A stretch of DNA of 64,000 nucleotides from Castellaniella sp. MT123. GTDB lineage: Bacteria > Pseudomonadota > Gammaproteobacteria > Burkholderiales > Burkholderiaceae_B. The notes below the pieces were generated by a model, which saw nothing but the letters and a program-made list of their open reading frames with translations, ran no database searches and was not told the origin of the DNA. A program made the position numbers and the translations under genes. Below, piece after piece: positions 11,306 through 26,801 of the stretch (positions are counted from its first letter, which is position 1; each line of letters begins with the position of its first letter). Location: the NCBI RefSeq assembly GCF_039614765.1, contig NZ_CP154879.1, forward strand, positions 310,001-374,000, written 5' to 3'.

Positions 11306-11332
11306 AACGTCTTGGAATGATAAGGAAGACTC

Positions 11333-12097
11333 ATGGACTTGAACAGTGATCTGGGCGAAAGTTTCGGGGCCTGGCGGATGGGGGATGACGCCAGCATGCT
11401 GGACATCGTCACCAGCGCCAACGTCGCGTGCGGCTTTCATGCGGGGGATCCCGCCGGCATCCTGGATACTTTGCGGGCGGCTGCCGCGCGGGGTGTCGTG
11501 GTCGGCGCCCACGTGGGGTATCGGGATCTGGTCGGGTTCGGGCGCCGTGCCATGGATCCGACCAGCCGGGAACTGGTTGCCGACGTGATCTATCAGATCG
11601 GTGCCTTGCGGGGGTTGGCCGACGCCGCCGGCACCCGGGTGCGCTACGTCAAGCCCCACGGTGCTCTGTACAACACGATCGCGCACGATGCGCGGCAGGC
11701 GGCCGATGTCATCACCGCGATCCTGGACCTGGATCCGGACCTGATCCTGATGGGGCTCGCGGGTGCACCGCTGCTGGACTGGGCTCGCCAGCGCGGCTTG
11801 CGGGTCGTTGCAGAGGCCTTTGCCGACCGGGCTTATACCGCCCAGGGCGTGTTGGTGTCGCGGCGCGAACCGGGGGCCGTGCTGCACGATCCGGACCGGA
11901 TCGCGGACCGGATGCTGGATTGGGTGCGGACCGGCGAGATCACGGCGATCGACGGATCGCGGGTGCGCCTGCGGGCCGATTCGATCTGCGTGCACGGCGA
12001 CAGTCCCGGAGCCGTGGCTATGGCTCGCGCTGTGCGGGCCCGTCTCGAATCGGCCGGCGTGGTGCCGCGGCCGTTTGCCGGAACCCCGGGCGTCTGA
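11333..12097 (+). CDS. pxpA: 5-oxoprolinase subunit A (LamB/YcsF family)
   Basis: Component of the ATP-dependent prokaryotic 5-oxoprolinase PxpABC, which opens 5-oxo-L-proline to glutamate in the cytosol. The 254-aa protein has the family signature from residue 2, [18 protein letters not shown], then [30 protein letters not shown] and VKPHGALYN, and near the C-terminus the [12 protein letters not shown] motif. Length is normal for the family. ATG 11333 follows AAGGAAG. The stop overlaps the ATG of pxpBC (TGATG), showing coupled translation. Confidence 0.95.
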
Positions 12098-13758
12098 TGG
12101 CGCATCCGCGGATCCTGTTGGCGGGTGACGCCGCGCTGCTGGCGGAACTCGGCAGCCTGGATGCCGTGCTGGCGCTCTTTCAGGTGACCCGTGCCCGGCG
12201 ACTCGCCGGGGTGACGGACCTGGTGCCGGCCGCCCGGACCCTGCTCGCGCAGTTTGAGCCGTCGGTGGTGACCCCTGATGCGGTGTCGGCATGGCTGCGG
12301 CGCTGCTGGCAGGAATCCAGGGGCCGCATGCATGTGTTGGCGAACGCCCCCGCCGGGGCAGGCCTTCCTGCCAGAACCATCGAGATTCCCGTGCATTACA
12401 CCGGGGACGATCTGGACGAAGTCGCCGACCGGCTGGGCCTGTCGCGCGCCGAGCTGATCGAGCGCCACACCGCCCATGATTTCCAGGCGGCATTCGCCGG
12501 CTTCGCCCCGGGCTTTGTCTACCTGACGGGGGGCGACGCCTGTTTTCATGGCCTACCCAGGCGCCCCAGCCCCCGCACCCGCGTTCCGGCCGGCTCCGTG
12601 GCGGCAGCGGGTGAATTCAGTGCCGTGTATCCGGCGGAAAGCCCGGGGGGGTGGCAGTTGCTGGGTATCACGCCGTTGCGCATGTGGGATCTGGCCCGCG
12701 CCGAACCGGCCCTGGTGCAGCCTGGGTTTCGGGTGCGGTTCCGGGATCTGGGTGCGCCGGAAGTCGTGGTCAGCCTGCCTGCGCCGTGCGCGGTGACCGC
12801 CCGCATCTCCACGGCTGCAGAGTCGCCGGGCGCGGTGCCAGGGGCTTTCGCAGCCGCCGTGCCGCATCTGGAAGTCCTCGGCGCCGGCTTGCAGACGGTC
12901 TTCCAGGATCTGGGGCGGCCCGGGCTGACCGGCATGGGTGTGTCCTGCTCCGGGGCGCTGGATCGTGGCGCCCTGCGACGGGCCAATCGGCTGGTGGGCA
13001 ATCGATCCGATGCGACTGTGCTGGAAAATGCTCTGGGTGGATTGCGGCTGGCCTGTCACGGCCGGGCGGTCGTCGCGGTGACCGGGGCCCAGGTGCCCGT
13101 GGCCTTGACGACCGCTTCGGGGGTTCGCCTGCCTGCGGCGGGCGGGCGCGCCCTGACGATGGAGGACGGTCAGGTGCTGCGTATCGGCCAGCCGCGTGCG
13201 GGCGTCCGATGTTACGTGGCCGTGCGAGGCGGTTGGGCGGTGCCGCCCGTGCTGGGCAGTTGTGCGACCGATGTGTTGGCCGGCATTGGTCCCGACCCGG
13301 TACGCACCGGCGATCGCCTGGTGGTGGGGCGGGAAGCGGTCGCCGGCGACCCGATGTGGCAGTCGAAAGTCGATCCCGAATCCGTTCGCCCGCATCCTCG
13401 TCCGGGGGACGTCGTGACGCTGGATGTCGTTCCGGGGCCGCGTGACGATTGGTTCGAACCCGAGGCGCTGGCGCGGCTGCAGTCCCAGGAATGGCTCGTC
13501 ACGCCGCAATCGAACCGGGTCGGGATGCGGCTGTCCGGCCACGAGCCACTGCCGCGCCGCCGGAAGCGGGAACTGCCCAGCGAGGGGACTGTGACGGGGG
13601 CCATCCAGGTGCCGGCCAATGGCCAGCCGGTGCTGTTCCTGGCGGACCATCCGCTGACCGGCGGCTATCCCGTGATCGCCGTCGTGCATAGCCGGGAACT
13701 GGATCGCCTGGGCCAAGTACCAGTGGGCGCGCGCCTGCGTTTTCGATTTGTTAACTGA
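12097..13758 (+). CDS. Fused 5-oxoprolinase subunits B and C
   Basis: A 553-aa fusion of PxpB (KipI/allophanate hydrolase subunit 1 type) and PxpC (KipA/subunit 2 type). The N-terminal ~225 residues carry the PxpB motifs EIPVHYTGDDLDEVA, HDFQAAFAGFAPGFVYLTG, PSPRTRVPAGSVAAAGEF and GGWQLLGITP. From about residue 255 the PxpC part runs LEVLGAGLQTVFQDLGRPG, SGALDRGALRRANRLVGN, VAVTGAQVPV, and ends with TVTGAIQVPANGQPVLFLADHP. Most genomes encode the two subunits separately; here the junction is a short Ala/Pro-rich linker with no internal stop. It starts in the TGATG overlap with pxpA and converges with the lysR gene, stops 10 bp apart. Confidence 0.93.
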   Translation: MAHPRILLAGDAALLAELGSLDAVLALFQVTRARRLAGVTDLVPAARTLLAQFEPSVVTPDAVSAWLRRCWQESRGRMHVLANAPAGAGLPARTIEIPVHYTGDDLDEVADRLGLSRAELIERHTAHDFQAAFAGFAPGFVYLTGGDACFHGLPRRPSPRTRVPAGSVAAAGEFSAVYPAESPGGWQLLGITPLRMWDLARAEPALVQPGFRVRFRDLGAPEVVVSLPAPCAVTARISTAAESPGAVPGAFAAAVPHLEVLGAGLQTVFQDLGRPGLTGMGVSCSGALDRGALRRANRLVGNRSDATVLENALGGLRLACHGRAVVAVTGAQVPVALTTASGVRLPAAGGRALTMEDGQVLRIGQPRAGVRCYVAVRGGWAVPPVLGSCATDVLAGIGPDPVRTGDRLVVGREAVAGDPMWQSKVDPESVRPHPRPGDVVTLDVVPGPRDDWFEPEALARLQSQEWLVTPQSNRVGMRLSGHEPLPRRRKRELPSEGTVTGAIQVPANGQPVLFLADHPLTGGYPVIAVVHSRELDRLGQVPVGARLRFRFVN

Positions 13759-13768
13759 TGGTGAGTCC

Positions 13769-14701
13769 TTATACCCCGTGTTCGCGGATGTGGCCCACCA
13801 GAAATTCCGTGAAGCCTCGCAGCGTTTCGGAGGGGTTCTCGGTCGACCAGATGGCGCACGTGGGGATGCGGTCGGCAATATCGCTCAGCGGTCTGACGGC
13901 CACGCCGGTGCGTACCGCGTTGCGTACGCAGCTGGCATACACGCTGACTCCGACCCCTGCGGCGATCATGCCCATGATGCCGCTGGTGTTGGAAGCCTGC
14001 TGCACGATGTTGGGGAAGAAATCGGCGTTGTGGCATAGCGGGAACAGGAGACGGCGAAACGCGCCGAACGCGCTTTCCGTCCCGATCACGAAAGGCTCGC
14101 CGGCCAAGTCCGCCAGTTGCAGGGAAGCCTGCGCGCTCAGGGGATGCGTGTCGGGCAGCAGGGCCACGTATTCGTTTTGGTCCACCAAGAGGCTGCGCAC
14201 CTTCTGGCTGGGGAATTCCCCGATGACGAAGCCCACGTCCAGGCGGCCTTCGAGCAGGGCGAGACATTGCCGGGCGCTGGGGTTGTATTCCATTTCCACG
14301 CTGACGTCGGGATAGAGACTGCGGTATTCGCGCAGCAGCGTGGGCAGCCGTCCATTGATCGCAAAATCCATGTAACCCACCCGCAATTGCCCGCCACGGC
14401 CCGCCGCCGCATCCATGGCCGCCGGCTTGGCGCGTAGCAGGTGGCCGTAAGCCAGGCGGCATTCGGCGGCAAAGGCCTCTCCTGCCGAGGTGAGTCGCAC
14501 GCGCCGGGTGGAGCGTTCCAGCAGGGCCACTTCCGTGCCCTGTTCCAGGGCCCGGATCATGCGGCTTAGCGCCGGTTGGCTGGTGAAAAGACGTTCGGCG
14601 GCCTTGCCGAAATGCAGCTCTTCCGCCACGATCAGGAACGCCCGGATGTGCCGTACGTCGAAGCGCAAGGCGGGCAGGGTTTCCACGGTGGATTTGGCCA
14701 T
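13769..14701 (-). CDS. LysR-family transcriptional regulator
   Basis: A 310-aa LysR protein. The N-terminal helix-turn-helix spans about residues 17-75 (FLIVAEELHFGKAAERLF, TSQPALSRMIRALEQ, LLERSTRRVRLTSAG) and the effector domain follows (GGQLRVGYMDFAINGRLPTLLREYRSLYPDV). It is divergent from the MFS1 gene. The shared upstream region contains a near-perfect dyad and an element that recurs before both copies of the cysteine hydrolase gene, so this protein is the obvious candidate regulator for the hydantoinase-like locus. LysR proteins of this sort normally activate in response to a pathway metabolite. Confidence 0.92.
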   Translation of the reverse strand: MAKSTVETLPALRFDVRHIRAFLIVAEELHFGKAAERLFTSQPALSRMIRALEQGTEVALLERSTRRVRLTSAGEAFAAECRLAYGHLLRAKPAAMDAAAGRGGQLRVGYMDFAINGRLPTLLREYRSLYPDVSVEMEYNPSARQCLALLEGRLDVGFVIGEFPSQKVRSLLVDQNEYVALLPDTHPLSAQASLQLADLAGEPFVIGTESAFGAFRRLLFPLCHNADFFPNIVQQASNTSGIMGMIAAGVGVSVYASCVRNAVRTGVAVRPLSDIADRIPTCAIWSTENPSETLRGFTEFLVGHIREHGV

Positions 14702-14726
14702 CCGAGTCTGTTTCCCGAAGGTGATG

Positions 14727-14774
14727 GATGATTAATGCCATGATGAGTATTAATCATCACGCAATTCACATCAA
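14727..14774. promoter_or_regulatory. Divergent lysR/MFS1 regulatory element, member 1 of a three-copy motif
   Basis: GATGATTAAT (14727-14736) and its perfect complement ATTAATCATC (14749-14758) form a dyad. Overlapping it, GTATTAAT at 14747 is followed exactly 18 bases later by TTCACATCAA at 14765. The two hydrolase genes downstream have the same arrangement, GCATTAAT then TTGATATCAA 18 bases later. This fits a LysR-type recognition plus activation site reading into MFS1, and probably autoregulates lysR. Confidence 0.6.
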
Positions 14775-14903
14775 AAATAGTCGCGTACCTGATTATATTG
14801 TTCTTATCGGCAATTGACACAGACCCTTGTACCCTGTGAACACGGCCGAAAAAACCGGTAGGGACCTAGCCATCCGGTCCCGCCGAATCCTAAAAAAGAG
14901 ATC

Positions 14904-14936
14904 GCATCCGGTATTTGCAAATCGGATACCCGATGC
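14904..14936 (+). other. Leader stem-loop before MFS1
   Basis: GCATCCGGTAT (14904-14914) pairs with ATACCCGATGC (14926-14936) with one mismatch and an 11-base loop. It ends ten bases before the GGAG ribosome site (14947-14950) of MFS1, so it lies in the transcript leader and could affect translation. It matches no riboswitch class that I recognise. Confidence 0.4.
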
Positions 14937-14956
14937 AAGATTATCTGGAGACAAGC

Positions 14957-16306
14957 ATGTCACAGCGTACAACGCACGCGGCGCCGGACCCTGCCTTGCG
15001 CAAGGTCACGGTTGCCGCCATCGCCGGGACCGTCATCGAATGGTTCGATTTCGCGATCTATGGGTTTATGGCGCCCGCCATCGCCCTGGCATTTTTTCCT
15101 GAAGGCAATCCGGTGACGGCATTGCTGCAGACCTTTGCCATTTTTGCGGTGGCCTTCGCCCTGCGCCCGATCGGCGGAGCCTTCTTCGGCATGATGGGCG
15201 ACCGCATCGGGCGCAAGCGTGTCCTGGCCCTGACCGTCTTGCTGATGTCTTGCGCCACCGCGGCGATCGGCCTGATTCCGAACCATGAATCCATCGGCAT
15301 CTGGGCGGCTGTCCTGCTGACCGTGGCGCGGTGCGTCCAGGGCTTCTCCGCCGGCGGCGAATATGCCGGCGCGGTGACCTACGTGATCGAGCATGCGCCC
15401 GACCATCAGCGGTCGCGCTACAGCAGCTGGATGCCCTCGGCCACCTTCGCCTCCTTCGCCTTGGCGGCTCTGATCTCGTATTTCCTCGCCGTCGGCCTGA
15501 GCACAGCGGAAATGAATGCCTGGGGCTGGCGCGTGCCATTCCTGGTGGCGGCGCCGCTGGGGCTGGTGGCGTTTTATATCCGCAGCCATCTGCGGGAGAG
15601 CCCTCTATTCCAGAAAGTGCTCGAAAGCTCGGGAGTGCCGCATTCCTCACTGGGGCAGACGTTGGCGGTTCAATGGAAATCCATGCTCCGGTTGGGGGGC
15701 TATATCAGCCTGACCGCAGTGTCCTTCTATATCTTTTCCACCTACATGACGACGTTCCTGAGATCCGTCATGCACATGCCTGCGGACCGGGTGCTGATGA
15801 GCAATGTGGTGGCCTTGACCTTCGCCGCCGCTATCGCGCCGGTGATCGGACCCATCTGCGACCGCGTTGGGCGACGTGCGACGATGTTCGCGTCGGTCGT
15901 CCTCCTGGGCGGACTGTCGGTACCCGCCTATATCCTGGCGTCCAGCGGCACACTCGGTCATGCCCTGGTGGCCCAGCTGGTGCTTGCGCTCGGCGCCGTG
16001 ACGGCGAATGTGGTGACGGCTGTTCTTCTGAGCGAGGTCTTTCCCACGAAGGTGCGCTATACCGCTTCGGCGGTGACCTACAACATCAGCTATGCACTTT
16101 TCGGTGGCACGGCCCCCTTCATCGCCACCTATCTGATCGACGTCACGGGCAACATCCTGGCGCCGGCAATCTATATCACTGCGCTGGCGGGCCTGGCTTT
16201 CATTGCGGCCTGGTTGTTGCCCGAAACTGCTGGCCGTCCGCTGGACGGGCTGGATCAGCCCGTTGGCGCCCCGCAGCCTTCCCGGGCCCGGCTGTCGGTG
16301 CAGTAA
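14957..16306 (+). CDS. MFS transporter, metabolite:H+ symporter (MHS/ProP-like) family
   Basis: Inner-membrane secondary transporter, 449 aa with about 12 hydrophobic segments. MHS hallmarks are visible: the first helix region GTVIEWFDFAIYGFMAPAIA (residues ~24-43), the inter-helix 2-3 loop GMMGDRIGRKRVL, and RCVQGFSAGGEYAGA at about residue 118. Family members import organic acids, osmolytes or aromatic compounds by proton symport. ATG 14957 follows CTGGAG at the right distance. It is divergent from lysR and upstream of the hydrolase-hyuAB genes, and shares their upstream element, so it probably imports the substrate or a relative of it. Confidence 0.9.
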   Translation: MSQRTTHAAPDPALRKVTVAAIAGTVIEWFDFAIYGFMAPAIALAFFPEGNPVTALLQTFAIFAVAFALRPIGGAFFGMMGDRIGRKRVLALTVLLMSCATAAIGLIPNHESIGIWAAVLLTVARCVQGFSAGGEYAGAVTYVIEHAPDHQRSRYSSWMPSATFASFALAALISYFLAVGLSTAEMNAWGWRVPFLVAAPLGLVAFYIRSHLRESPLFQKVLESSGVPHSSLGQTLAVQWKSMLRLGGYISLTAVSFYIFSTYMTTFLRSVMHMPADRVLMSNVVALTFAAAIAPVIGPICDRVGRRATMFASVVLLGGLSVPAYILASSGTLGHALVAQLVLALGAVTANVVTAVLLSEVFPTKVRYTASAVTYNISYALFGGTAPFIATYLIDVTGNILAPAIYITALAGLAFIAAWLLPETAGRPLDGLDQPVGAPQPSRARLSVQ

Positions 16307-16380
16307 GCCGAAGACGCCATCGAGTGGGCGCGACAGCGCCCTGGAAGCAGGTATGGATCAATTGGATTGATGATCATATG

Positions 16381-16408
16381 GCATTAATAATCATTCAATT
16401 GATATCAA
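16381..16408 (+). promoter_or_regulatory. Upstream element of hydrolase copy 1, member 2 of the three-copy motif
   Basis: GCATTAAT at 16381-16388 is followed after ten bases by the perfect palindrome TTGATATCAA at 16399-16408. The same two blocks at the same spacing precede copy 2 (22796-22823), and a two-mismatch version precedes MFS1. TTGATA can act as a -35 hexamer; a -10 is less clear (CTCTAAG region around 16424-16430). Confidence 0.6.
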
Positions 16409-16512
16409 ATAACAATCGATGTTCTCTAAGCTGAACCTGTGCATCCGCCCTTCGTTACGCGGCGGATCACGCAAGACCCAACGATATTTTTCTACATCAA
16501 AGGAGCCACATC

Positions 16513-17229
16513 ATGTCCGACAATCTTGAACAAGTCCTAGAAGCCGCCTTCGCCGAAGCCACCCGTCGTTACCAGTCGCGGGGTTTCCAGCGCCGCGTGG
16601 GCTTTGGCAAGCGCCCGGCGCTGATCAGCGTGGACCTGGCCAACGCCTGGACGCGTCCGGGCAACCCTTTTACTTGCGAACACGTTGATGACCAGATCAT
16701 TCCGTCGATGCAGGCGCTGCTCAAGGGCTTTCGCAAGTACAACTTGCCCGTGGTGCACGTGACGACCTGCTACGAGATCACCGATCGCGACAACCAGAAC
16801 ACCGACATGGGCTTGTGGCACAACAAGATCCCGATCGACGTCGTCAGCCAGGGCAACCCCGACATCTGGGCGATTGATTCGCGCATCGCGCCGATCGAAG
16901 GCGAGCTGACCCTGATCAAAAAGCGCGCCAGCGCGTTCCACGGGACGTACCTGGCGGGTTACCTGCGCGCCGCGGGGGTGGATACGATTCTGGTGACCGG
17001 CGTGACCGCCTCGGCTTGTGTGCGCGAGACGATCTGCGACGGCCTGGCCGACGGATTTCGCACGATCGCCGTCAAGGAAGCGATTGGAGACCGGGTGCCG
17101 GGTGCCGTACTCTGGAACCTGTTCGATATCGACGCCAAGTTCGGCGATGTCGAGACGACCGAGACCTGCCTGAAATATCTCGACCGCATCGGTCAGGAAC
17201 AGGAGGTCCCCGAGAAAGCGGTGGCCTGA
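16513..17229 (+). CDS. Cysteine hydrolase, N-carbamoylsarcosine amidase-like (copy 1)
   Basis: A 238-aa cysteine hydrolase of the isochorismatase-like fold. The expected triad is present: Asp41 in ALISVDLANAW, Lys136/137 in LIKKRASAFHGT, and nucleophile Cys169 in TGVTASACVRET. The extended N-terminus and GFGKRPALISVD opening match proteins of the N-carbamoylsarcosine amidohydrolase group, which release ammonia and CO2 from N-carbamoyl amino acids. Maleamate and other amide hydrolysis remain possible. It is first in a probable operon with hyuA and hyuB. In the creatinine route by way of N-methylhydantoin, an ATP-dependent hydantoinase makes N-carbamoylsarcosine and this type of enzyme cleaves it to sarcosine. 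The protein is identical to the product at 22929-23645. Confidence 0.9.
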   Translation: MSDNLEQVLEAAFAEATRRYQSRGFQRRVGFGKRPALISVDLANAWTRPGNPFTCEHVDDQIIPSMQALLKGFRKYNLPVVHVTTCYEITDRDNQNTDMGLWHNKIPIDVVSQGNPDIWAIDSRIAPIEGELTLIKKRASAFHGTYLAGYLRAAGVDTILVTGVTASACVRETICDGLADGFRTIAVKEAIGDRVPGAVLWNLFDIDAKFGDVETTETCLKYLDRIGQEQEVPEKAVA

Positions 17230-17246
17230 GGCCATCAGGCTTCACA

Positions 17247-17271
17247 CGCACCACCCCTGTCGGGTGGTGCG
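17247..17271 (+). other. Intergenic stem-loop between hydrolase copy 1 and hyuA
   Basis: CGCACCACCC (17247-17256) pairs perfectly with GGGTGGTGCG (17262-17271) around a CTGTC loop. No T-run follows, so it is more likely an operon-internal mRNA processing or stability element, or a partial terminator, than a full intrinsic terminator. hyuA begins 23 bases further on. Confidence 0.5.
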
Positions 17272-17293
17272 CATAAACAAGATGGAGGAGACC

Positions 17294-19441
17294 ATGGCAA
17301 GAATAGGCGTCGATGTTGGCGGAACCAACACGGACCTGGTGCTGGAGACCTTTGCTGATGATCCGGTGGGGGCCGGCATTTATCAGCACAAGGTGCCCAG
17401 CACGAAGCAGGATCAGTCTGAAGGTGTCGTGCGCGGCATCATCGAACTATGCGGCAAGGCGGGCATTGCCCGATCGGCCGTCAAGCAAATCATGCACGGC
17501 ACCACGGTGGCGACCAACGCCACCCTGGAGTACGACGGGGCGAACGTGGGCATGCTGACCACGCGCGGTTTTCGCGACATCCTGCACATCGGGCGACACA
17601 AGCGCCCGCACAATTTCTCTCTGCATTTCGACGTGCCCTGGCAGTCACACCCGCTGGTCAAGCGCCGCAACCGCCTGCCGATCACGGAACGGATCCTGCC
17701 ACCAGATGGCCGCATCGTCACACCGCTGGTGGAGGACGAGGTCTACGAGGCTGCCCTGCGCCTGCGCGACAATGGCGTCGAGGCCGTCATCGTCTGTTTT
17801 TTGTTCTCGTTCCTGAATGATGCTCACGAACGTCGCGCACAGGAAATCGTCCGCGAAGTATTGCCAGGGATGTACTGTTGGCGCTCGTCCGAAGTGGTCG
17901 ACGTGATGCGTGAATTCGAACGCTTTTCCACCACGGCGATGAATGCCTTCGTGGGGCCGAAGACGGCGCGCTACATCAGCCGCCTGGAAAGCCGGCTGCG
18001 CGAAAACGGTATCGAGGCGGATCTGCGCATCATGCAGTCCAATGGGGGGCTGGCCACGGTCGAACAGTGTATCGACCGACCCGTCAGTATCCTCATGTCG
18101 GGCCCGGCGGGTGGTGTGATCGGCGGGCGTTTCTTCGCCGATATGGTGGGCCAGAGCAACATCCTGGCGGTGGACATCGGTGGTACCTCCGCCGACATCG
18201 CGGCCCTGACCGCAGGCGAGCTGCGCATCAAGAATCCGCGCGACGCCGTAGTCGCGGACTATCCGGTGATGGCACCCATGATCGACATGATCACAATCGG
18301 TGCGGGCGGTGGATCGGTGGCCTACCTGGATTCCGCAGGGGGCTTTCACGTCGGCCCGCGATCCGCGGGATCCGAGCCCGGGCCGGCCTGCTACGGGCGC
18401 GGCGGCACCGAACCCACCACGACCGACGCCAATGTGGTGCTTGGGCGCCTGGATGCTGATCAGATGCTGGGCGGTGATCTGGGAGCCACGGCTTCCCTGG
18501 CCGAACAGGCCATCCGCGAGAAGATTGCTGAGCCCCTGGGCATGAGCGTGACCGAGGCGGCGCTGGGCATCCTGCGGGTGGTGAACAACAATATGTCGCT
18601 GGCCATCCGCTCGGCATCCGTAGCCCGGGGCCTGGATCCGCGCGAGTTCGCCCTCATGCCTTTCGGCGGCGCCGGCCCCGTGCATGGTCCATCCCTGGCG
18701 ACCGAAGTCGGCGCAAAGTATGTCCTGGTGCCGCCCATGCCCGGGATCACAGCGGCGGCGGGGCTGCTGGCCACCGACCTGAAATACGAGTACACGCGTT
18801 CACAGCTGTGCAACCTGTGCACGGCGGGGGTTGATGAACTCGCCGCCATCAACCGCACCCTCGCGGCCTTGGAGGTTGAATGTCGCGATCGGCTGGTCGC
18901 CGACCATGTCGCACCCGAGGACATGGCGCTGCGGTATATCGCCGAATGCCGCTACCACGGTCAGGGCTTCGAACTGCGCGTCGATCTGCCCGCATCCACC
19001 ATCGAGGCCAGCCATCTCGAATCCTTGATTGAAGCTTTTCATACTGTGCACGAGAAAGACTATGGCTATGGCTTCCGTGGCGCCGATGTGGAACTGGTGA
19101 CGTTGCGCCTGATCGGCACCGGCCGCTTTCCGCGTCTGGACTGGTCGCAATGGGGCAAGGGTCGCCAGGTGGATAACGGCCTGGAGCAGGCTTATCTGTA
19201 TACGCGGGACACCGTGTTCGATGACGGCACCCGTCTGCCCACGCCACGCTATGACCGACAGCGCCTCGCGCCCGAACAAGTCATCGATGGCCCGGCGATC
19301 ATCCTGCAACATGACTCGACCTCCCTGGTGCCTCCGGGCTGGCAAGCCTGGGTCAGCCCCTCGGGCAACATGATCGTCGGTGTCCGGGCCGCGACCGAAA
19401 AAAAGACGGCCGGCAAGCAACTCGAGGAGACACTTCAATGA
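17294..19441 (+). CDS. hyuA: HyuA-type N-methylhydantoinase/oxoprolinase subunit A
   Basis: ATP-binding subunit of an ATP-dependent hydantoinase/oxoprolinase-family enzyme, 715 aa, cytosolic. The actin-like ATPase fold starts at ARIGVDVGGTNTDLVLE, followed by VKQIMHGTTVATNATLE, ILMSGPAGGVIGG, LAVDIGGTSADIAAL and the TIGAGGGSVAYLD and EPGPACYGRGG motifs. Note GGTNTD in place of the common GGTFTD. ATG 17294 is preceded by GGAGGAG. Its stop overlaps the hyuB start (ATGA). With the adjacent carbamoyl amidase the best guess is N-methylhydantoin or a related cyclic ureide as substrate. Acetone/acetophenone carboxylase-like roles are less likely because no third carboxylase subunit is present. Confidence 0.9.
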   Translation: MARIGVDVGGTNTDLVLETFADDPVGAGIYQHKVPSTKQDQSEGVVRGIIELCGKAGIARSAVKQIMHGTTVATNATLEYDGANVGMLTTRGFRDILHIGRHKRPHNFSLHFDVPWQSHPLVKRRNRLPITERILPPDGRIVTPLVEDEVYEAALRLRDNGVEAVIVCFLFSFLNDAHERRAQEIVREVLPGMYCWRSSEVVDVMREFERFSTTAMNAFVGPKTARYISRLESRLRENGIEADLRIMQSNGGLATVEQCIDRPVSILMSGPAGGVIGGRFFADMVGQSNILAVDIGGTSADIAALTAGELRIKNPRDAVVADYPVMAPMIDMITIGAGGGSVAYLDSAGGFHVGPRSAGSEPGPACYGRGGTEPTTTDANVVLGRLDADQMLGGDLGATASLAEQAIREKIAEPLGMSVTEAALGILRVVNNNMSLAIRSASVARGLDPREFALMPFGGAGPVHGPSLATEVGAKYVLVPPMPGITAAAGLLATDLKYEYTRSQLCNLCTAGVDELAAINRTLAALEVECRDRLVADHVAPEDMALRYIAECRYHGQGFELRVDLPASTIEASHLESLIEAFHTVHEKDYGYGFRGADVELVTLRLIGTGRFPRLDWSQWGKGRQVDNGLEQAYLYTRDTVFDDGTRLPTPRYDRQRLAPEQVIDGPAIILQHDSTSLVPPGWQAWVSPSGNMIVGVRAATEKKTAGKQLEETLQ

Positions 19442-21210
19442 GCAAGGAATTGACACTCGACCCGATCACCCTGCAGGTGATCAGTGGCGCCTTGGACACT
19501 ATCGCCGAGGAAATGGGGCATGTGCTGTATCGCATGTCGTTTTCTTCCATCATCCGCGAATCGCAGGACCTGGGCGCGGGCCTGTTCGACCTGAACTACC
19601 AGACGCTCTGCGAGTCCGAGTCGACTCCCATGCACATCGGTTCGATCCCGGCCTATCTGCGCGGCATCGAGAAGACGTTGCAGGGCGGCCAATGGAACGA
19701 GGGCGATGTGGTTGTGCACAATCACCCCTACTACGGATCCAGCCACACGCCCGATCTGGCGATCGTCATCCCCATCTACTATCAGGGGGAAAGGGTCGGT
19801 TTCGCCGCAAATACGGCGCACCACATCGATATCGGCGCGGCCACTCCGGGCCTGATCATCGATGTCACCGACATGTATGCCGAAGGCATGCTGCTTGCCG
19901 GCCTGAAGCTGTACGACCGAGGCCAGCGCAATGAGGCCCTGGTGCAGATGATCACCAGTAATAGCCGCGCCGGTGACCAGCTGATGCATGACATCGATGC
20001 GCAGATCGCGTCGGCGCGCCTGGGGGTGAAGCGCTTTCAGGAACTGCTCGACCGCTATGGACGCGATATGGTTTTCGCCGCGGCCAACCAGCTGATGGAC
20101 TATAGCGAGATGCGCATGCGCCAGGGAATCGCGGCCATACCCGATGGGGAATACCGCGCCGAGGGTTTCCTGGATGACGACGGCCGGCGCCGTGACGTAC
20201 GCCTGCCCATCGTCGTCACCGTCAAGGTGCAGGGTGATTCGGTCACGGTCGACCTGACCGGTTCAGCCGAGCAGACGCCCACGGCCTATAACGTGCCTTT
20301 CGAGGGTTCGTGCAAGGTCGCCGCCTATGCGGCTTTTCGCAAGTTGCTGCTGGACGTGTGCACCATTGACAGCCGTGTGCCATCGAACGAAGGCTCCTTT
20401 CGGCCGATTCATGTGGTCGCGCCAGAGGGAACGATCTTCAATCCAAAGGCGCCGGCAGCGGCGGAGGCCCGTTTCACACAGTGCAATCGCATGATCGACT
20501 TGATCTTGCAGGCCTTGGCGCCAGTGCTGCCCAACAAGGTGATCGCCGGCAGCTCGGCGTCCATTTCGTTCGCTTCCTACTCGGGTACGCGCGAGAACGG
20601 CGACTACTGGGTGTTTCTGGAGGTCAACGAGGGTGCCTACGGCGGTCGGCCGCGATCCGATGGTCCGGACAGCATCGACAACCTGATGGCCAACACGCGC
20701 AATAATCCGATCGAGGACCTGGGCATGCATCTGCCCATGGTGTGCGACCGCTACGAGTTGCGCGATGACGTGCTGCCGGGTGCCGGACGGTTCAGGGGCG
20801 GTCTGGGTGTAGTCAAGGCCCAGCGCGTGCTCACTCCGGGCTTCATCACGCACGAGAGTGAACGCCACCTAGAGGCCCCGCGCGGCCTGTTTGGCGGTCA
20901 CGACGGCGTGGTTGGACGCAACATTATCCACAACGTCGACAGCCCGGATGAAGTCATCGAGATGTACTCGAAGTTCTCCGGCTTTCAGACGCGCGCCGGT
21001 GATGTCATGACCTATTACTCGCCCTGCGGCGGGGGCTATGGCAATCCGCTCGACCGTCCGGCCGAGACGGTGCGCGAGGACGTGCTCGATGACTTCTGCA
21101 CCCGCAAGGCGGCCTACGAGGTCTACGGTGTCGTCCTGGACGACAGTCTGGTGCTGGATCGGGCGGCAACCACCCGCCGGCGCGCGAAATTGGCTGCCGC
21201 AGCCCACTGA
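19438..21210 (+). CDS. hyuB: HyuB-type N-methylhydantoinase/oxoprolinase subunit B
   Basis: Partner of HyuA, 590 aa. The family opening is clear (LDPITLQVISGALDTIAEEMG, residues ~5-25, then SFSSIIRESQDLGAGLFD), followed by NHPYYGSSHTPDLAIVIPIY, the metal-site region FAANTAHHIDIGA, and GRPRSDGPDSIDNLMANTRNNPIE in the second half. The end GGGYGNPLDRPAETVREDVLDD is also standard. Together HyuA and HyuB hydrolyse a cyclic amide bond using ATP. The ATG sits in the last codons of hyuA, so the subunits are made in coupled fashion. No third (HyuC) subunit follows; the next gene is a transporter after a 160-bp structured gap. Confidence 0.92.
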   Translation: MSKELTLDPITLQVISGALDTIAEEMGHVLYRMSFSSIIRESQDLGAGLFDLNYQTLCESESTPMHIGSIPAYLRGIEKTLQGGQWNEGDVVVHNHPYYGSSHTPDLAIVIPIYYQGERVGFAANTAHHIDIGAATPGLIIDVTDMYAEGMLLAGLKLYDRGQRNEALVQMITSNSRAGDQLMHDIDAQIASARLGVKRFQELLDRYGRDMVFAAANQLMDYSEMRMRQGIAAIPDGEYRAEGFLDDDGRRRDVRLPIVVTVKVQGDSVTVDLTGSAEQTPTAYNVPFEGSCKVAAYAAFRKLLLDVCTIDSRVPSNEGSFRPIHVVAPEGTIFNPKAPAAAEARFTQCNRMIDLILQALAPVLPNKVIAGSSASISFASYSGTRENGDYWVFLEVNEGAYGGRPRSDGPDSIDNLMANTRNNPIEDLGMHLPMVCDRYELRDDVLPGAGRFRGGLGVVKAQRVLTPGFITHESERHLEAPRGLFGGHDGVVGRNIIHNVDSPDEVIEMYSKFSGFQTRAGDVMTYYSPCGGGYGNPLDRPAETVREDVLDDFCTRKAAYEVYGVVLDDSLVLDRAATTRRRAKLAAAAH

Positions 21211-21216
21211 CCGAAG

Positions 21217-21334
21217 ATGACGCGCATTCTGCGCGTCATGCTCTAACGCCTGGCAGTACTCCGTGTCCGGCCGTAGCCCTTCCATGGGCTGCGGTCCGGA
21301 GATCACCGGCCCGCTTTCCGCAAGCGGCTGCCGG
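21217..21334 (+). other. Three consecutive strong stem-loops between hyuB and MFS2
   Basis: Hairpin 1: ATGACGCGCA (21217-21226) with TGCGCGTCAT (21230-21239), three-base loop. Hairpin 2: 21266-21300, arms TCCGG-CCGTAGCCC and GGGCTGCGG-T-CCGGA with a six-base loop and one bulged T. Hairpin 3: 21306-21334, CCGGC and CCGCTT pairing with AAGCGG and GCCGG. None is followed by a T-run. The MFS2 ATG comes 36 bases after the last. They could uncouple expression of the transporter from hyuAB or protect transcript ends. Confidence 0.55.
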
Positions 21335-21370
21335 GCGGGATCCCTTCACCCTATTCGAGGGAGTACACAA

Positions 21371-22741
21371 ATGGATACCACGCTAGTTGCAGACTTGCCC
21401 CGGGTGCACAAGGTCACGCCGAAGGATGTCGTGATCGCCTCCTGGATCTGTTTTTTTGCCTGGACCTTCGCAGTCTATGATTTCGTGCTTTTCGGCAACC
21501 TGCTGCCCGTTCTGGCGCACGATTTCGGCTGGAGCGCGGCCACGGCCACGGGAGCCAATACCTGGGTGACCGCCGGTACGGCCATGGTGGCCTTCGGCGT
21601 TGGTCCCTATGTGGATCGTGCGGGACGCAAAAAGGGCATTGTGGTGGCCGTCATCGGTGCGGCCATCTTTTCGCTGTTGACCGCTCCTATGGGGTGGGTG
21701 ATGGGCCTGACGGGTGGGCTCGGATTCGTCCTGCTCATCGTCATCCGTTCCCTGGCTGGCCTGGGCTATGCGGAACAGGCGATCAATGCCACCTATCTGG
21801 GTGAGATCTTTGCCCTGCATTATTCCAGTCCGGATCAGGCGCGCCGGCGCGGCTTCATCTATTCGCTGGTGCAGTCGGGCTGGCCCGTGGGTTCAGTGCT
21901 GGCGGCGGCCTCGATCGCCGTCATCCTGCCAATGGGGGGCTGGGAATGGTGCTTCATCGTCGCTGTTTTTCCGGCGGTCTTCATGGTGATCGCCGCGCGT
22001 CATCTGAAGGAAAGCCCCCAATTCCTGGCGCGTCGCCATGCGGAGGAGCTGCTCGCGGCCGGGCGCAGGCCGGAGGCACTGGCCTATGCGCGGGCCAGCG
22101 GCATCAGTCTGGAGGAAACCAGTACGCCGGCGGCGGCCGCCTTCAAGGGGGAATCCCTGCGCTCGACCCTGGTTATCGGGATCTCGTTCATGCTGAACTG
22201 GTTTGGCGTACTCGCCTTCCTGATTCTGGGGACTTCGCTGCTGACTGCGGAAACTGGCAAGGCCATCGCCTTTGACAATGCCCTCACCATTTTGATCATC
22301 TCCAACGCCACGGCCTTCTGCGGCTACCTGTTCTTTGGCTGGTTGGGGGACCGGATCGGCCGGCGCAATGCCATCGGCCTGGGCTGGCTGCTGTGTGCGG
22401 CTTCTTTCCAGGCCATGCTGATGGCGCCCAACGGGGACTTCAACCTGATCATTGCGTTTTATAGCGCTGGGCTGTTCTTCATGATCGGCCCGTATTCGGC
22501 CCTGCTGTTCTTCAGTGCGGAAAGCTTTCCCGTGCATACCCGTGCCACGGGAGGATCGCTGATCAACGCCGCGGGTCAGGTGGGCTCGATTATCGCGGGC
22601 ATGCTGATTACGGCGTCTTTGACTCGGGGCTGGAACTGGATCGATGCAAGCTTTTATTGGGGGGTGCTGCCGATCCTGGCCTCCGGCCTGCTGATCTTTG
22701 CGGCCCGCAACGTCGATCCGAGGCACGTCCGGCGCGATTGA
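21371..22741 (+). CDS. MFS transporter (MFS2)
   Basis: Major facilitator protein, 456 aa with about 12 hydrophobic segments, inner membrane. The first helix region reads ASWICFFAWTFAVYDFVLFG; the helix 2-3 loop is GPYVDRAGRKKGI (about residue 75) and the second-half counterpart is GWLGDRIGRRNAIG (about residue 325). It also has SLAGLGYAEQAINATYLGEIF. ATG 21371 has GAGGGAG upstream and begins just before the charged leader of the first helix; a longer reading through the hairpin region is unlikely. It follows hyuAB on the same strand and precedes the second hydrolase copy, so it presumably imports the amide substrate or exports a product. Substrate unknown. Confidence 0.88.
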   Translation: MDTTLVADLPRVHKVTPKDVVIASWICFFAWTFAVYDFVLFGNLLPVLAHDFGWSAATATGANTWVTAGTAMVAFGVGPYVDRAGRKKGIVVAVIGAAIFSLLTAPMGWVMGLTGGLGFVLLIVIRSLAGLGYAEQAINATYLGEIFALHYSSPDQARRRGFIYSLVQSGWPVGSVLAAASIAVILPMGGWEWCFIVAVFPAVFMVIAARHLKESPQFLARRHAEELLAAGRRPEALAYARASGISLEETSTPAAAAFKGESLRSTLVIGISFMLNWFGVLAFLILGTSLLTAETGKAIAFDNALTILIISNATAFCGYLFFGWLGDRIGRRNAIGLGWLLCAASFQAMLMAPNGDFNLIIAFYSAGLFFMIGPYSALLFFSAESFPVHTRATGGSLINAAGQVGSIIAGMLITASLTRGWNWIDASFYWGVLPILASGLLIFAARNVDPRHVRRD

Positions 22742-22795
22742 GCGGCGGATGATTTGAGATCGCCGAATCGTATTCCGGAGATTGTTGTTTAAAAA

Positions 22796-22823
22796 GCATT
22801 AATGAGGTCTTTATTGATATCAA
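22796..22823 (+). promoter_or_regulatory. Upstream element of hydrolase copy 2, member 3 of the three-copy motif
   Basis: GCATTAAT (22796-22803) and TTGATATCAA (22814-22823) at the same 18-base offset as at copy 1. The ten bases between the two boxes differ from copy 1 while both boxes are exactly kept, which points to the boxes as the functional parts. Confidence 0.6.
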
Positions 22824-22928
22824 ATAACGGCCACTATTTCTCTAAACTGAACCTGTGAATCCGCCCTTCGTTACGCGGCGGATCGCTCAAGACCCAACGA
22901 TATTTTCCTACATCAAAGGAGCCACATC

Positions 22929-23645
22929 ATGTCCGACAATCTCGAACAAGTCCTGGAAGCCGCCTTCGCCGAAGCCACCCGTCGTTATCAGTCGCGGGGT
23001 TTCCAGCGCCGCGTGGGCTTTGGCAAGCGCCCGGCGCTGATCAGCGTGGACCTGGCCAACGCCTGGACGCGTCCAGGCAACCCTTTTACGTGCGAACACG
23101 TCGATGATCAGATCATTCCGTCGATGCAGGCGCTGCTCAAGGGCTTTCGCAAGTACAACTTGCCCGTGGTGCACGTGACGACCTGCTACGAGATCACCGA
23201 TCGCGACAACCAGAACACCGACATGGGCCTGTGGCACAACAAGATCCCGATCGATGTCGTCAGCCAGGGCAACCCCGACATCTGGGCGATTGATTCGCGC
23301 ATCGCGCCGATCGAAGGCGAGCTGACCCTGATCAAAAAGCGCGCCAGCGCGTTCCACGGGACGTACCTGGCGGGTTACCTGCGCGCCGCGGGGGTGGATA
23401 CGATTCTGGTGACCGGCGTGACCGCCTCGGCTTGTGTGCGCGAGACGATCTGCGATGGCCTGGCCGACGGGTTTCGCACGATCGCCGTCAAGGAGGCGAT
23501 TGGTGACCGGGTGCCGGGTGCCGTACTCTGGAACCTGTTCGATATCGACGCCAAGTTCGGTGATGTCGAGACGACCGAGACCTGCCTGAAATATCTCGAC
23601 CGCATTGGCCAGGAACAGGAGGTCCCCGAGAAAGCGGTGGCGTGA
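22929..23645 (+). CDS. Cysteine hydrolase, N-carbamoylsarcosine amidase-like (copy 2)
   Basis: Encodes the same 238-aa protein as 16513-17229, residue for residue, with Asp41, Lys136/137 and Cys169 retained. The coding DNA differs from copy 1 by 17 third-position or silent first-position changes by my count, with a long identical stretch in the middle, so either strong selection or gene conversion keeps the protein fixed. It has its own copy of the regulatory element and leader and is followed by a strong terminator-like hairpin, so it is a separate single-gene transcription unit. Likely role: cleavage of an N-carbamoyl or amide intermediate generated by HyuAB. Confidence 0.9.
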   Translation: MSDNLEQVLEAAFAEATRRYQSRGFQRRVGFGKRPALISVDLANAWTRPGNPFTCEHVDDQIIPSMQALLKGFRKYNLPVVHVTTCYEITDRDNQNTDMGLWHNKIPIDVVSQGNPDIWAIDSRIAPIEGELTLIKKRASAFHGTYLAGYLRAAGVDTILVTGVTASACVRETICDGLADGFRTIAVKEAIGDRVPGAVLWNLFDIDAKFGDVETTETCLKYLDRIGQEQEVPEKAVA

Positions 23646-24013
23646 CGGGTTGGGCGGGGCGTCATCGGCGGAACCGATGAATCTGCTCCCCTGAACGCCA
23701 GGGACTGCGGCGCCATGATTGGCGGCTGCGTTTGTGCCGGACTGCCTTGATAGGGCAGGCGCGCCAAAAACGAAAAATGGCTTACTGACCGAGGTCAGTA
23801 AGCCATTTGATTTTGAAGGCCAATGTGACGCCCGGGTACGTCATCCCCGAGATGATCCGTGCATTCTGTCGGGGCCTATCGCGACGGAATTTGCATATTT
23901 CCATAAGGAATTAATCCGTACCAGAATATTTCCTAAAATTCTGATGATTCATCGAGATTGGCGCACTGGATGTTCTGGTTTGCCGCCGACCTTGTTGAAA
24001 AGCAGGAGAATTC
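23646..24013. other. Intergenic region, hydrolase copy 2 to binding protein
   Basis: 368 bases without a gene. It holds one perfect 15-bp stem-loop (listed separately) followed by an AT-richer part from about 23880 that probably carries the promoter of the binding-protein gene, whose ribosome site is GCAGGAG just before 24014. No copy of the GCATTAAT/TTGATATCAA element is seen here. Confidence 0.6.
23775..23808. terminator. Intrinsic terminator after hydrolase copy 2
   Basis: AAATGGCTTACTGAC (23775-23789) and GTCAGTAAGCCATTT (23794-23808) form a perfect 15-bp stem with loop CGAG. GATTTT follows on the plus strand and AAAAA precedes, so it could end transcription in either direction. Confidence 0.8.
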
Positions 24014-24925
24014 ATGAAAGCATTGCCCCTCGTTCTGGCCGCTGCGCTGACAGTGGCCGGTATCGGTTCCTCCCAGGCCGCTGACTTCAGCCGGCTGGAC
24101 CGGATCAAGTCGACCGGAGAAATCGTCATCGGCACGCGGGATGCCGCGATTCCGTTTTCTTATCTGGATGATCACCAGAAATCTGTCGGTTACACCATGG
24201 ACATCTGCTATGGCATTGCCGATGCCATCCGGAAGGATCTGGGCCTGTCCTCCATCCACGTCAAGGAAGTCCCTGTCACCGGGTCAACCCGCATTCCGCT
24301 GATCGCCAATGGCACGGTCGATCTGTCCTGCGGGCCCGACACCAACAACGTCCAGCGCCAGAAGCAGGTCAGCTTTGCGCCCGCCACCTTCGTGTCCGCC
24401 ACGCATTTCGCGTCCTTGAAGCAATCGAATCTGCGTCATCTGCGGGATTTCCAGGGGAAGACGGTGATTTCCGTGTCGGGCAGCACCAACCTGAAGTGGC
24501 TGACAGAAATCAATGCGCAGAAACAGCTGGGCATGCGGATCATCACGGCCAGTGACCATGCCGAGGCCTTCCTGGCAGTGGCCAATGGGCGGGCGTCAGC
24601 GTTCTTCATGGATGGCATCCTGCTGGCAGGGCTGGTGGCAAATTCCCATGATCCCCAGGCCTGGTCCATCAGCAAGGAAGCCTATACGTTCGAGCCCTAC
24701 GGCATCATCGAGCCCAAGAACGATGCGCGCTTCAAGACGGCTGTCGATGACGCCGTGAAGGCCATGATCAAGGACGGTCGGGTCGATACGCTCTACACCA
24801 AATGGTTTACCCAGCCCATTCCGCCCAAGCATGTCAACTTGAACTGGCCCATGACGCCAGAACTGAAGAAACTGCTGGCTCATCCGACTGATTCGCCAGA
24901 ACCCGAGGTGCTGAAGCAGGACTGA
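24014..24925 (+). CDS. ABC transporter substrate-binding protein, glutamate/aspartate (GltI-like) type
   Basis: Periplasmic binding protein of the family-3 amino-acid group, 303 aa. A signal peptide (MKALPLVLAAALTVAGIGSS, cut after QAA) is followed by LDRIKSTGEIVIGTRDAAIPFSYLDD (given in part: IVIGTRDAAIPFSYLDD), the GYTMDICYGIADAI helix, RIPLIANGTVDLSCGPDTN, and VSGSTNLKWLTEI, all typical of glutamate/aspartate binders. No permease or ATPase gene is adjacent, so it is an orphan binding protein that must share a transporter encoded elsewhere or act in sensing. It lies in its own unit bounded by terminators. A link with the amide-degrading locus upstream is only positional. Confidence 0.88.
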   Translation: MKALPLVLAAALTVAGIGSSQAADFSRLDRIKSTGEIVIGTRDAAIPFSYLDDHQKSVGYTMDICYGIADAIRKDLGLSSIHVKEVPVTGSTRIPLIANGTVDLSCGPDTNNVQRQKQVSFAPATFVSATHFASLKQSNLRHLRDFQGKTVISVSGSTNLKWLTEINAQKQLGMRIITASDHAEAFLAVANGRASAFFMDGILLAGLVANSHDPQAWSISKEAYTFEPYGIIEPKNDARFKTAVDDAVKAMIKDGRVDTLYTKWFTQPIPPKHVNLNWPMTPELKKLLAHPTDSPEPEVLKQD

Positions 24926-25021
24926 GGAATGCCCGTCCACCGCTGATGGGGTAGAGCCGAGCCATGGGTAGGGCTCCCCATCAGCCGACGGTGATTACCC
25001 AGAATTCGCCCAGCCAAAGAA

Positions 25022-25053
25022 AAACCGCCTAGGCGTTGGACCCTAGGCGGTTT
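25022..25053. terminator. Intrinsic terminator between binding-protein gene and tRNA-Arg
   Basis: AAACCGCCTAGG (25022-25033) and CCTAGGCGGTTT (25042-25053) pair perfectly over 12 bp with an eight-base loop. TTTCT follows on the plus strand and a run of A precedes, so it can serve the binding-protein gene and, on the other strand, the tRNA gene. Confidence 0.8.
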
Positions 25054-25081
25054 CTAACCTGTTAAGAAAACAGGGTAATTC

Positions 25082-25158
25082 TGGTGCGGCTGGCAGGATT
25101 CGAACCCACGACCCCTTGGTTCGTAGCCAAGTACTCTATCCAACTGAGCTACAGCCGC
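25082..25158 (-). tRNA. tRNA-Arg (anticodon ACG)
   Basis: A complete 77-nt tRNA with encoded CCA. Acceptor stem GCGGCTG begins at 25158, D-arm has AGCTCAGTTGGATAGAG, the anticodon stem CTTGG/CCAAG encloses CTACGAA so the anticodon is ACG, and the T-arm contains GGTTCGAATCC. A34 is normally changed to inosine to read CGU, CGC and CGA. Confidence 0.96.
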
Positions 25159-25227
25159 TAAAGAGGCGTAAATATAACATGCTTTTTCTGGCTTGTCACA
25201 TCACGCTTTTTCCAGCGAGTTTTTCAA

Positions 25228-26253
25228 TCACCCCAGGTGGATCAGTGTCCCGGAATCCGGGGGCAACAGCCATGCCTGAACTGGAAAGCGCGAAATAATA
25301 CCACGGATTGCGGATTCCGGCATCTGAGACAGGGCAGTGGACAGTGCATCGGCGGTTGTCGCGTCGGCGGCGCGTACCGTGACGCTACGCCAGACCGGCG
25401 TGGCCTGACCCGTATGCGGGTCGAACAAGTGCGTATAGTGGCCGGCAGGGTCGAAGGGAGTGCCATAGCCGCCGGAGGTCGACAGTGCCTGGTTTCGCAG
25501 ATCGACGGTATCCAGGGCTTGGTCCGGATGCGCCGGATCGGCGATTCCCGCGTGCCACGGGTGGCCGGGCGACCGTTGCCCGATCGCGCGGAGCTCGCCC
25601 ATATCGACGATGGCGTGCTCCAGGCCGTTGCTGCGCAGCAGGTCCGTGACCCGGTCCGTGATATAGCCCTGGGCAATACCATTCAGTGTCAAGGCCATTC
25701 CCGGGCGATCCAGCGTGATCCGATCCTCTTCGAGGCGGATGGCGCGATAGTCGACGCGCTGCAGCACAGCATGGAGCTTTGCCGGTGCCGGCGGCAGCGG
25801 CGTGCCCTGGGTCACACTTTGTGCGTACAGATCCCACAGCACCTGGACCGTCGGATCGAACATGCCATTGGTGGCTTCGGCAAAGCCCACTGATTGGCTG
25901 AGCAGGCGCGACAGGTCGGGTGGTGGCGCATCGAGCCGTCCGTCGCGGTTCAGCAGAACCAGCGCGCTGTCTTCCTGATACAGGCTGAAGATCTTCTCCA
26001 GCCGATGGACCTCGGCCACGGCCATCTGCACGAGTGCCTCGGCGTGCTTGCGGTCGGGATGCAGCAGCTGCAGCTGGGCGTCCGCGCCCAGGGCCACACC
26101 GCGCCAGATGACGGGATCCGGCAGTGCATCTTGTTGTTTGAGGGCGGCCCACAGCGGTGTGGACCCCAGCAGTGCCGCACTGGCAGCGACGATGCCGAGA
26201 AACCGGCGCCTGGGAAGCAAGGAGGTATTCATGATGGGTTCCAGCTGGTGCAT
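25228..26253 (-). CDS. nosX: FAD:protein FMN transferase, ApbE/NosX family
   Basis: ApbE-type flavin transferase, 341 aa, that attaches FMN to a threonine in partner proteins; in nos operons it flavinylates NosR. A Tat-type signal (LLPRRRFLGIVAAS) targets it to the periplasm. The ApbE core is seen in IFSLYQEDSALVLLNRDG, TNGMFDPTVQVLWDLY, DMGELRAIG, STSGGYGTPFDPAG and HLFDPHTGQATPVW. The ATG at 26253 overlaps the nosL stop (TAATG); an internal ATG at 26232, nearer to the twin arginines, is an equally possible start. It is the last gene of nosRZDFYLX. Confidence 0.92.
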   Translation of the reverse strand: MHQLEPIMNTSLLPRRRFLGIVAASAALLGSTPLWAALKQQDALPDPVIWRGVALGADAQLQLLHPDRKHAEALVQMAVAEVHRLEKIFSLYQEDSALVLLNRDGRLDAPPPDLSRLLSQSVGFAEATNGMFDPTVQVLWDLYAQSVTQGTPLPPAPAKLHAVLQRVDYRAIRLEEDRITLDRPGMALTLNGIAQGYITDRVTDLLRSNGLEHAIVDMGELRAIGQRSPGHPWHAGIADPAHPDQALDTVDLRNQALSTSGGYGTPFDPAGHYTHLFDPHTGQATPVWRSVTVRAADATTADALSTALSQMPESAIRGIISRFPVQAWLLPPDSGTLIHLG

Positions 26254-26801
26254 TATCCGCGTGGAGAGGATGGTTCGACATACCGCAGGACATAGTCCTC
26301 GGGCATGCCCTGAAAATCGACGATCTGGCCGCCGTGTTGCGCGGCAAACCGGCGGGCGTCATCCATCCGGGCAAACGGGAGCGCGTCGGGCGCCCCCATG
26401 CCGCCGATGGCGTCGCCGTGAATGACGTAATGGGCCTGATGGGCGTCGATCCAGGCGTCAGCCGGCGGGTTGCCGTCGGGCCCGGCGCGGCCCATGTCCT
26501 GCACATAGATGGCCAGGATGGCCTTGGGCTCCTCGGGCAGCAATGTATAGGCAAAGACCTCGCGGATCGTCGAGAACCAGACCGGCCGGGGGTCGTCGCG
26601 CAGCAGGATCTGGCCCTTCGGGCCGACGTGTTCGTTCAGGTTCATGCCGCAGTAATGTCCGATCGACTGGTCGGTCATGGCTGCCGGCGTGGGGGGCGGC
26701 GTGGACGCGTCCGACTTGCCGCCGCAGCCGGTCAGCGCCAGGGACAGGCCCAGCGCCAGGCAGGCCAATGGGACGCGGAGTGTCAGGGGAAAGCCGTTCA
26801 T
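26253..26801 (-). CDS. nosL: NosL copper chaperone lipoprotein
   Basis: Outer-surface/periplasmic lipoprotein of 182 aa that delivers Cu(I) for assembly of the CuZ centre of N2O reductase. The lipobox LALTGC places the lipidated cysteine at about residue 26. The copper-binding CGM motif appears in SIGHYCGMNL, and the NosL fold follows (GQILLRDDPRPVWFSTIREVFAY, then AIYVQDMGRAG and VIHGDAIGGMGAPDALPFA). ATG 26801 is chosen for the GGAGGG upstream and the overlap with the nosY stop (ATGA). Confidence 0.94.
   Translation of the reverse strand: MNGFPLTLRVPLACLALGLSLALTGCGGKSDASTPPPTPAAMTDQSIGHYCGMNLNEHVGPKGQILLRDDPRPVWFSTIREVFAYTLLPEEPKAILAIYVQDMGRAGPDGNPPADAWIDAHQAHYVIHGDAIGGMGAPDALPFARMDDARRFAAQHGGQIVDFQGMPEDYVLRYVEPSSPRG

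Follow-up and report, generated by a model that had tools for sequence, protein, structure and literature searches.

We analysed a 64,000-nt stretch of the Castellaniella sp. MT123 genome (hereafter the window; feature coordinates count in the window), in which two copies of csh, a gene for an N-carbamoylsarcosine-amidase-like hydrolase, lie on either side of hyuA, hyuB and an MFS transporter gene. The locus was compared with that of Castellaniella sp. isolate DR_1_1.49 (locus L006), a metagenome-assembled genome (hereafter the MAG) marked as the same species as the window genome. The following features lie at the locus:

13769..14701, minus strand: gene for a LysR-type regulator, proposed for the csh genes (Pfam HTH_1 and LysR_substrate)
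14747..14775, plus strand: operator-like site in the gap between lysR and MFS1, 3 mismatches
14960..16306, plus strand: MFS1 transporter gene, metabolite:H+ symporter type (99% amino-acid (aa) identity in the MAG)
16381..16409, plus strand: operator-like site 5' of cshA, exact match
16422..16512, plus strand: cshA leader, from TTCTCTAA to the ATG
16513..17229, plus strand: cshA (copy A), N-carbamoylsarcosine-amidase-like hydrolase, 717 bp, 238 aa
17247..17271, plus strand: strong hairpin without a T run, between cshA and hyuA
17294..19441, plus strand: hyuA, N-methylhydantoinase-like subunit (Hydantoinase A domain, PDB match)
19438..21210, plus strand: hyuB, N-methylhydantoinase-like subunit, with a 4-base overlap with hyuA
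21371..22741, plus strand: MFS2 transporter gene, absent from the MAG locus as assembled
22796..22824, plus strand: operator-like site 5' of cshB, exact match, with an N10 spacer unlike that of cshA
22838..22928, plus strand: cshB leader, from TTCTCTAA to the ATG
22929..23645, plus strand: cshB (copy B), 717 bp, protein the same as that of cshA
24014..24925, plus strand: gene for an amino-acid-type ABC substrate-binding protein (SBP), in a region where divergence from the MAG is elevated

The two open reading frames (ORFs) differ at 17 positions over 717 bp (16 at codon position 3 and one Leu change at position 1), and their 238-aa products are identical. This confirms an earlier note on this DNA, which had also rightly described the copies as bracketing hyuA, hyuB and one MFS gene. 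Were 17 changes distributed by chance over synonymous and replacement sites, an all-synonymous outcome would have a probability of ∼5e-11, so selection on the Csh protein is plain. A repeat search of the window returned one direct-repeat family (16422-16721 and 22838-23137, 96%). An assembly artefact, which the note had named as a possible refutation, is unlikely because the genome forms a single contig (3,366,678 bases), cshA and cshB sit in separate flanking sequence, and there is also a third csh (copy C, 95% aa) ∼1.8 Mb from the pair, at 2134693-2135379 (minus strand) in the genome. The csh arrangement is real and biologically sensible.

Window segments 6513-17229 (98.5%) and 22780-33637 (97.3%) align to one continuous MAG stretch around a single csh. 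In the MAG genome, the best hyuB match has 30% identity and the sole match to the DNA of the hyuA-hyuB-MFS2 block covers 186 bases at 70%. Eight congeneric genomes yielded three weak matches to the block DNA (≤65% over ∼500 bases) and no csh at E≤1e-60. Among 268 genomes of the family, csh is found at E≤1e-90 in seven, including the window genome and the MAG, and hyuB at E≤1e-180 in one, i.e. the window genome; no second genome with both csh copies was found in the genus. To the extent that the MAG assembly is reliable, the block varies between strains together with one csh. Two possible marks of its origin were rejected: (i) its composition is not foreign (GC 0.62-0.635 and GC3 0.77-0.79, inside the range of its neighbours); and (ii) no plasmid donor emerged from a megablast search with 7.7 kb, in which 3 of 72,556 records matched, none covering 80% and the first covered over 29% at 75%. 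Seven records of the plasmid set carry csh-like genes at E≤1e-60 (60-80% aa).

The earlier note had the two blocks matching from a GCATTAAT box to the stop codon. Such a match is present in both copies but is not even along its length, and the box is the left half of a larger operator-like site (GCATNAAT-N10-TTGATATCAAA, 19 fixed bases). Copies A and B are identical at 19 of 19 operator bases, match at 9 of the 23 other promoter columns up to TTCTCTAA, and match at 86 of the 91 leader columns from there to the ATG (promoter versus leader, Fisher p 2e-8). Past the stop codon, 40-base bins are at the level of random pairs (19/46, 24/47 and 20/44). The MAG csh promoter is like A at 22/23 columns and like B at 9/23, and its leader has B's base at 5/5 sites at which A and B differ. 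This border suggests that old copies were homogenised from leader to stop codon; a single recent duplication would not be expected to leave it. Within the ORF, private sites number 12 in the MAG, 10 in A and 7 in B, which is close to a trichotomy. In a tree of 86 sequences, A and B come together with an ultrafast bootstrap of 100 (L061_4 and L070_10001, which have in-frame stops within the match, the second fetches of L040 and L054 and matches of <191 residues were left out). Polarising 29 sites with 17 outgroup sequences gave a mixed outcome, and no single A-to-B crossover was seen inside the MAG csh ORF.

Concerted evolution of csh is observed in related genera, not in the window pair. We kept 80 of 304 relatives (77 loci, cited by L numbers) and counted csh copies in 43 of these loci, which were hand-chosen with known two-copy loci included and come from 42 genomes, so the counts give no frequency. 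At least two csh matches are present in 11 of the 42 genomes, a number that includes the MAG on account of its copy C, and O. marisflavi, which has a single intact csh plus fragments of a second. The pairs compare as follows:

Oceanisphaera: 227/230 aa identical, dS 0.133
Oceanimonas CHS3-5: 224/229 aa, dS 0.164
Aromatoleum toluvorans: 222/228 aa, dS 0.114
Azoarcus Aa7: 225/228 aa, dS 0.022
A. toluclasticum: 224/228 aa, dS 0.118
Halomonas cerina: 223/231 aa, dS 0.099
Zobellella: 219/229 aa, dS 0.457
P. fluorescens PS691: 214/229 aa, dS 1.34
O. marisflavi, intact versus broken copy: 142/144 aa

The order csh-TRAP genes-csh-hyuA-hyuB-NCS1 is kept in L028, L034, L045 and L055, with the second csh of L055 broken. 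Intact csh copies in Oceanimonas, Oceanisphaera and Zobellella group by genome under conserved synteny, and the approximately unbiased (AU) test rejects a tree grouped by position (delta lnL 138, p ∼1e-52). Paralogue dS is 0.133-0.134 in Oceanisphaera and 0.164 in Oceanimonas, versus 0.41-0.57 between these genera. Concerted evolution is clear in these two genera and is indicated weakly, by the tree only, in Zobellella. Repeated duplication at the same place could also be proposed for the relatives, and we judge it less likely because synteny is conserved, by an argument set out in passages of PMC6053082. Five of six other csh pairs have ORFs that are 90-99% identical and flanks near the random mean of 0.46, and the sixth (L035) has an ORF 82% identical; the flanks depart from this in the L126 leader, which is similar over 80 bases, and in single 40-base bins of ≤0.62 (random pairs reach 0.61). 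This comparison was made without the L127, L070, L055 and Fodinicurvata pairs, the last being left out of all comparisons. The bracketing itself, which the note did not recall as described, is not peculiar to the window: csh copies also flank hyuAB in L035, L038, L126 and L127, and L028 joins this list when its third, broken copy is included. Broken csh copies lie at L055 13899-14809 and L028 18903-19819, near intact and almost identical ones, and were compared as found.

The note had attributed the identity of the two proteins to strong selection for dosage or repeated gene conversion. Purifying selection can explain zero replacements, and nothing special is needed at the within-species ratio: csh and the MAG copy give dN/dS 0.014-0.017 (dS 0.109-0.129, one replacement), and the chance of zero A/B replacements is 0.46, 0.19, 0.06 and 0.004 at dN/dS 0.014, 0.03, 0.05 and 0.1, respectively. 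In comparisons with other relatives, dN/dS is ∼0.03-0.17 where dS is estimable, several comparisons being saturated. Identical proteins are ordinary at the within-species dN/dS and unlikely at the higher values of distant relatives; dosage selection is needless as a cause of the identity at the former. As for gene conversion, the silent sites of the pair give no significant signal, whereas the promoter/leader border and the other genera favour it.

We also analysed the operator-like site at genome scale. Its pattern was drawn by eye from the upstream regions of the window copies, MFS1, the MAG and 17 relatives; matches in those regions arise partly by construction, and the whole-genome scan is the test. 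With ≤3 mismatches, the window contains three matches versus 0.01 expected, and the whole genome contains the same three sites alone, all in this locus (backwards control 0). Among 81 other csh genes that were scored (L127 and the three window-genome copies left out), 15 are preceded by a site matching at ≥15 of 19 positions, at -114 to -147, with no equally good match elsewhere in those 15 loci, and 57 reach ≤12 of 19. A less well matching form precedes copy C and its MAG orthologue (14/19 for L007). The putative operator belongs to near relatives, not to all csh genes. Because 16 of the 18 loci L008-L025 have a divergent lysR homologue (48-68% aa) next to csh, we infer that a LysR protein binds the site; one such protein would probably drive MFS1, cshA-hyuA-hyuB and cshB from the three sites observed. 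This provides a specific candidate operator for a regulator of N-carbamoylsarcosine use. The L038 csh pair, like the window pair, has an operator variant common to both copies, 121 and 114 bases upstream (GCAATAAT, with ten differing bases and a similar right half).

Homology points to the pathway that the locus may serve. The best PDB match of Csh is N-carbamoylsarcosine amidohydrolase 1nba (E 3.4e-70, residues 5-234 of 238), and Csh D41, K136 and C169 align with 1nba D51, K144 and C177, which we take to be catalytic. The near full-length similarity and the Asp-Lys-Cys alignment make Csh a putative N-carbamoylsarcosine amidohydrolase. HyuA and HyuB have N-methylhydantoinase 7hk5 as their best PDB match (first and second half of the chain, respectively) and, with their Hydantoinase A and B domains, are assigned to that family. 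Other identities were rejected by NCBIfam equivalogs: RutB (41.6 bits versus a cut-off of 377.95) and biuret amidohydrolase (36.7 versus 370) for Csh; caprolactamase CapA/CapB was likewise rejected for HyuA/HyuB (561.9 and 265.3 bits versus 1000). HyuAB would probably open N-methylhydantoin to N-carbamoylsarcosine, which Csh would split into sarcosine, CO2 and ammonia. The locus is probably an N-methylhydantoin/N-carbamoylsarcosine breakdown module under a LysR-type regulator, with Csh probably helping to degrade a creatinine by-product. A creatininase (TIGR04448, 365.5 bits versus a cut-off of 235) at genome 1374893-1375621, adjoining an NCS1-type permease, fits creatinine use; the product of creatininase is creatine, not N-methylhydantoin.

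Some further features accompany these genes. The 70-base stretch 17227-17296 in the cshA-hyuA gap has a fold of -33.5 kcal/mol (z -4.51), and its hairpin is perhaps an RNA-stability or attenuation element. Copy C, whose orthologue is present in the MAG (dS 0.023), neighbours a polyamine-type ABC transporter with a binding protein weakly matching PotD, and a gene without an NCBIfam match that we take to encode a dipeptidase. Window 11333-13758 contains pxpA (LamB/YcsF) followed by another reading frame, presumably for further 5-oxoprolinase subunits, and window 25228-34206 is, judging from its translations, presumably a nitrous oxide reductase cluster (nosZ, nosR and others).

Taken as a whole, the observations are probably best explained by a strain-variable block at csh, purifying selection on the protein, copies re-homogenised by recombination and a LysR-linked module. 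csh would be the homology by which the hyuA-hyuB-MFS2 block joins or leaves the chromosome via homologous recombination, purifying selection would hold the Csh protein constant, and, as the border suggests, one or more rounds of recombination between the copies would have made leader and ORF alike again when the promoters were already different. Several results weigh against this explanation: (i) conversion-tract tests on the window pair are not significant, with P 0.058-0.062 for the long identical central stretch (200 bp) that the note had pointed out, and P 0.12 for A=B runs (switches, P 0.08) over the 29 sites polymorphic in A, B and the MAG; (ii) the promoter/leader border was set by eye ahead of the Fisher test; (iii) the AU test separates none of the three A/B/MAG groupings (p 0.85, 0.14 and 0.24); (iv) in Zobellella the two copies are about as far apart (dS 0.44) as the second of them is from Oceanisphaera (0.43-0.46); (v) the six other csh pairs score 10-12 of 19 for the operator, so the site is not what those copies share; (vi) the MAG is 89% complete and may be misassembled, although at 12 coding positions its csh differs from A and B alike; and (vii) no creatinine deaminase was identified in the genome, the sole family searched being Pfam Amidohydro_3 (7 matches). 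One of these seven loci was read, and its gene is presumably hutI.

A plain recent duplication under purifying selection and without conversion, in which csh was copied once with its promoter and silent changes alone were tolerated, seems unlikely to us. It agrees with the non-significant run tests and with the probability of 0.46 for zero replacements beside 17 silent changes at dN/dS 0.014, yet a recent copy should keep the promoter spacer, where the non-operator columns match far less often than those of the leader, and it is the A promoter, not that of B, that resembles the MAG. The block may instead have arrived, compatibly with the preferred explanation, by one double crossover in which a donor csh-hyuA-hyuB-MFS2-csh-SBP segment replaced ∼8.7 kb, with entry near the cshA leader and exit near 25.07 kb; we regard this as a serious possibility with somewhat less than an even chance. 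Two segments are more diverged from the MAG than the rest, namely 23012-25073 (77/2050 versus 297/18565 elsewhere, reached by 0 of 60 block shuffles) and 16363-16913 (27/550 versus 135/10167, reached by 2 of 60), and csh and SBP have dS of 0.11-0.13 versus 0.03-0.07 in five left-flank genes. However, the nearly as high values of NosZ (0.096) and FtsH (0.106) show that local peaks of divergence are not unusual, and tract exchange is equally possible in the MAG lineage.

Conversely, the two-copy state could be older, and recombination between the two csh copies as direct repeats would then have removed the block in the MAG lineage. The MAG copy would bear this out with its A-like promoter, its B-type leader sites and B's downstream flank, but its ORF shares 7 of the 17 sites with A and 10 with B in scattered fashion (10 runs, P 0.74) and has the 12 changes of its own, which makes the loss doubtful. 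That two copies are kept since more Csh is needed alongside HyuAB is quite improbable: csh is duplicated beside hyuAB in several lineages, but hyuAB stands with a single csh at other loci (e.g. L009, L059 and L067). Beyond the strain-variable block with re-homogenised copies, we suggest very tentatively a broader picture, in which csh is recurrently duplicated and repeatedly homogenised over the ORF length, the operator plus ORF forming a portable homology that would let hyuAB blocks enter or leave an existing LysR regulon.

The operator-like site, the MAG without the block, the promoter/leader border and recurrent csh duplication with grouping by genome are new here. More interesting than the protein identity are the concerted evolution of csh in related genera, which offers a small and tractable case in a peripheral catabolic gene that can be compared across several genera with conserved synteny, and the strain-variable block bracketed by operator-csh units, i.e. 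a pathway block, sited at a duplicated gene, whose presence varies within the species. A literature search, with thin coverage of subscription journals, found no paper on duplicated csh genes.

Among known systems, Csh resembles 1nba over residues 5-234 with the Asp, Lys and Cys aligned, and differs in that the window genome has three csh copies and the substrate here is predicted from homology. The N-methylhydantoinase 7hk5 is one chain of 1288 residues, compared with two genes (hyuA and hyuB) here. In Corynebacterium glutamicum ATCC 14067, cshA and hyuB have been proposed for creatinine/N-methylhydantoin breakdown in the relevant passages of PMC8864220, which give csh and hyu genes as in the window, place them under AmtR control in contrast to the operator-like site beside lysR, and leave csh duplication unmentioned. 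Recurrent concerted evolution is described for bacterial genes such as tuf and amoCAB in PMC6053082, whose main text does not contain the words isochorismatase, amidase, amidohydrolase, hydantoin or sarcosine. In passages of that paper, as in the relatives analysed here, copies in conserved synteny group by genome; csh differs from tuf and amoCAB in being a peripheral catabolic gene.

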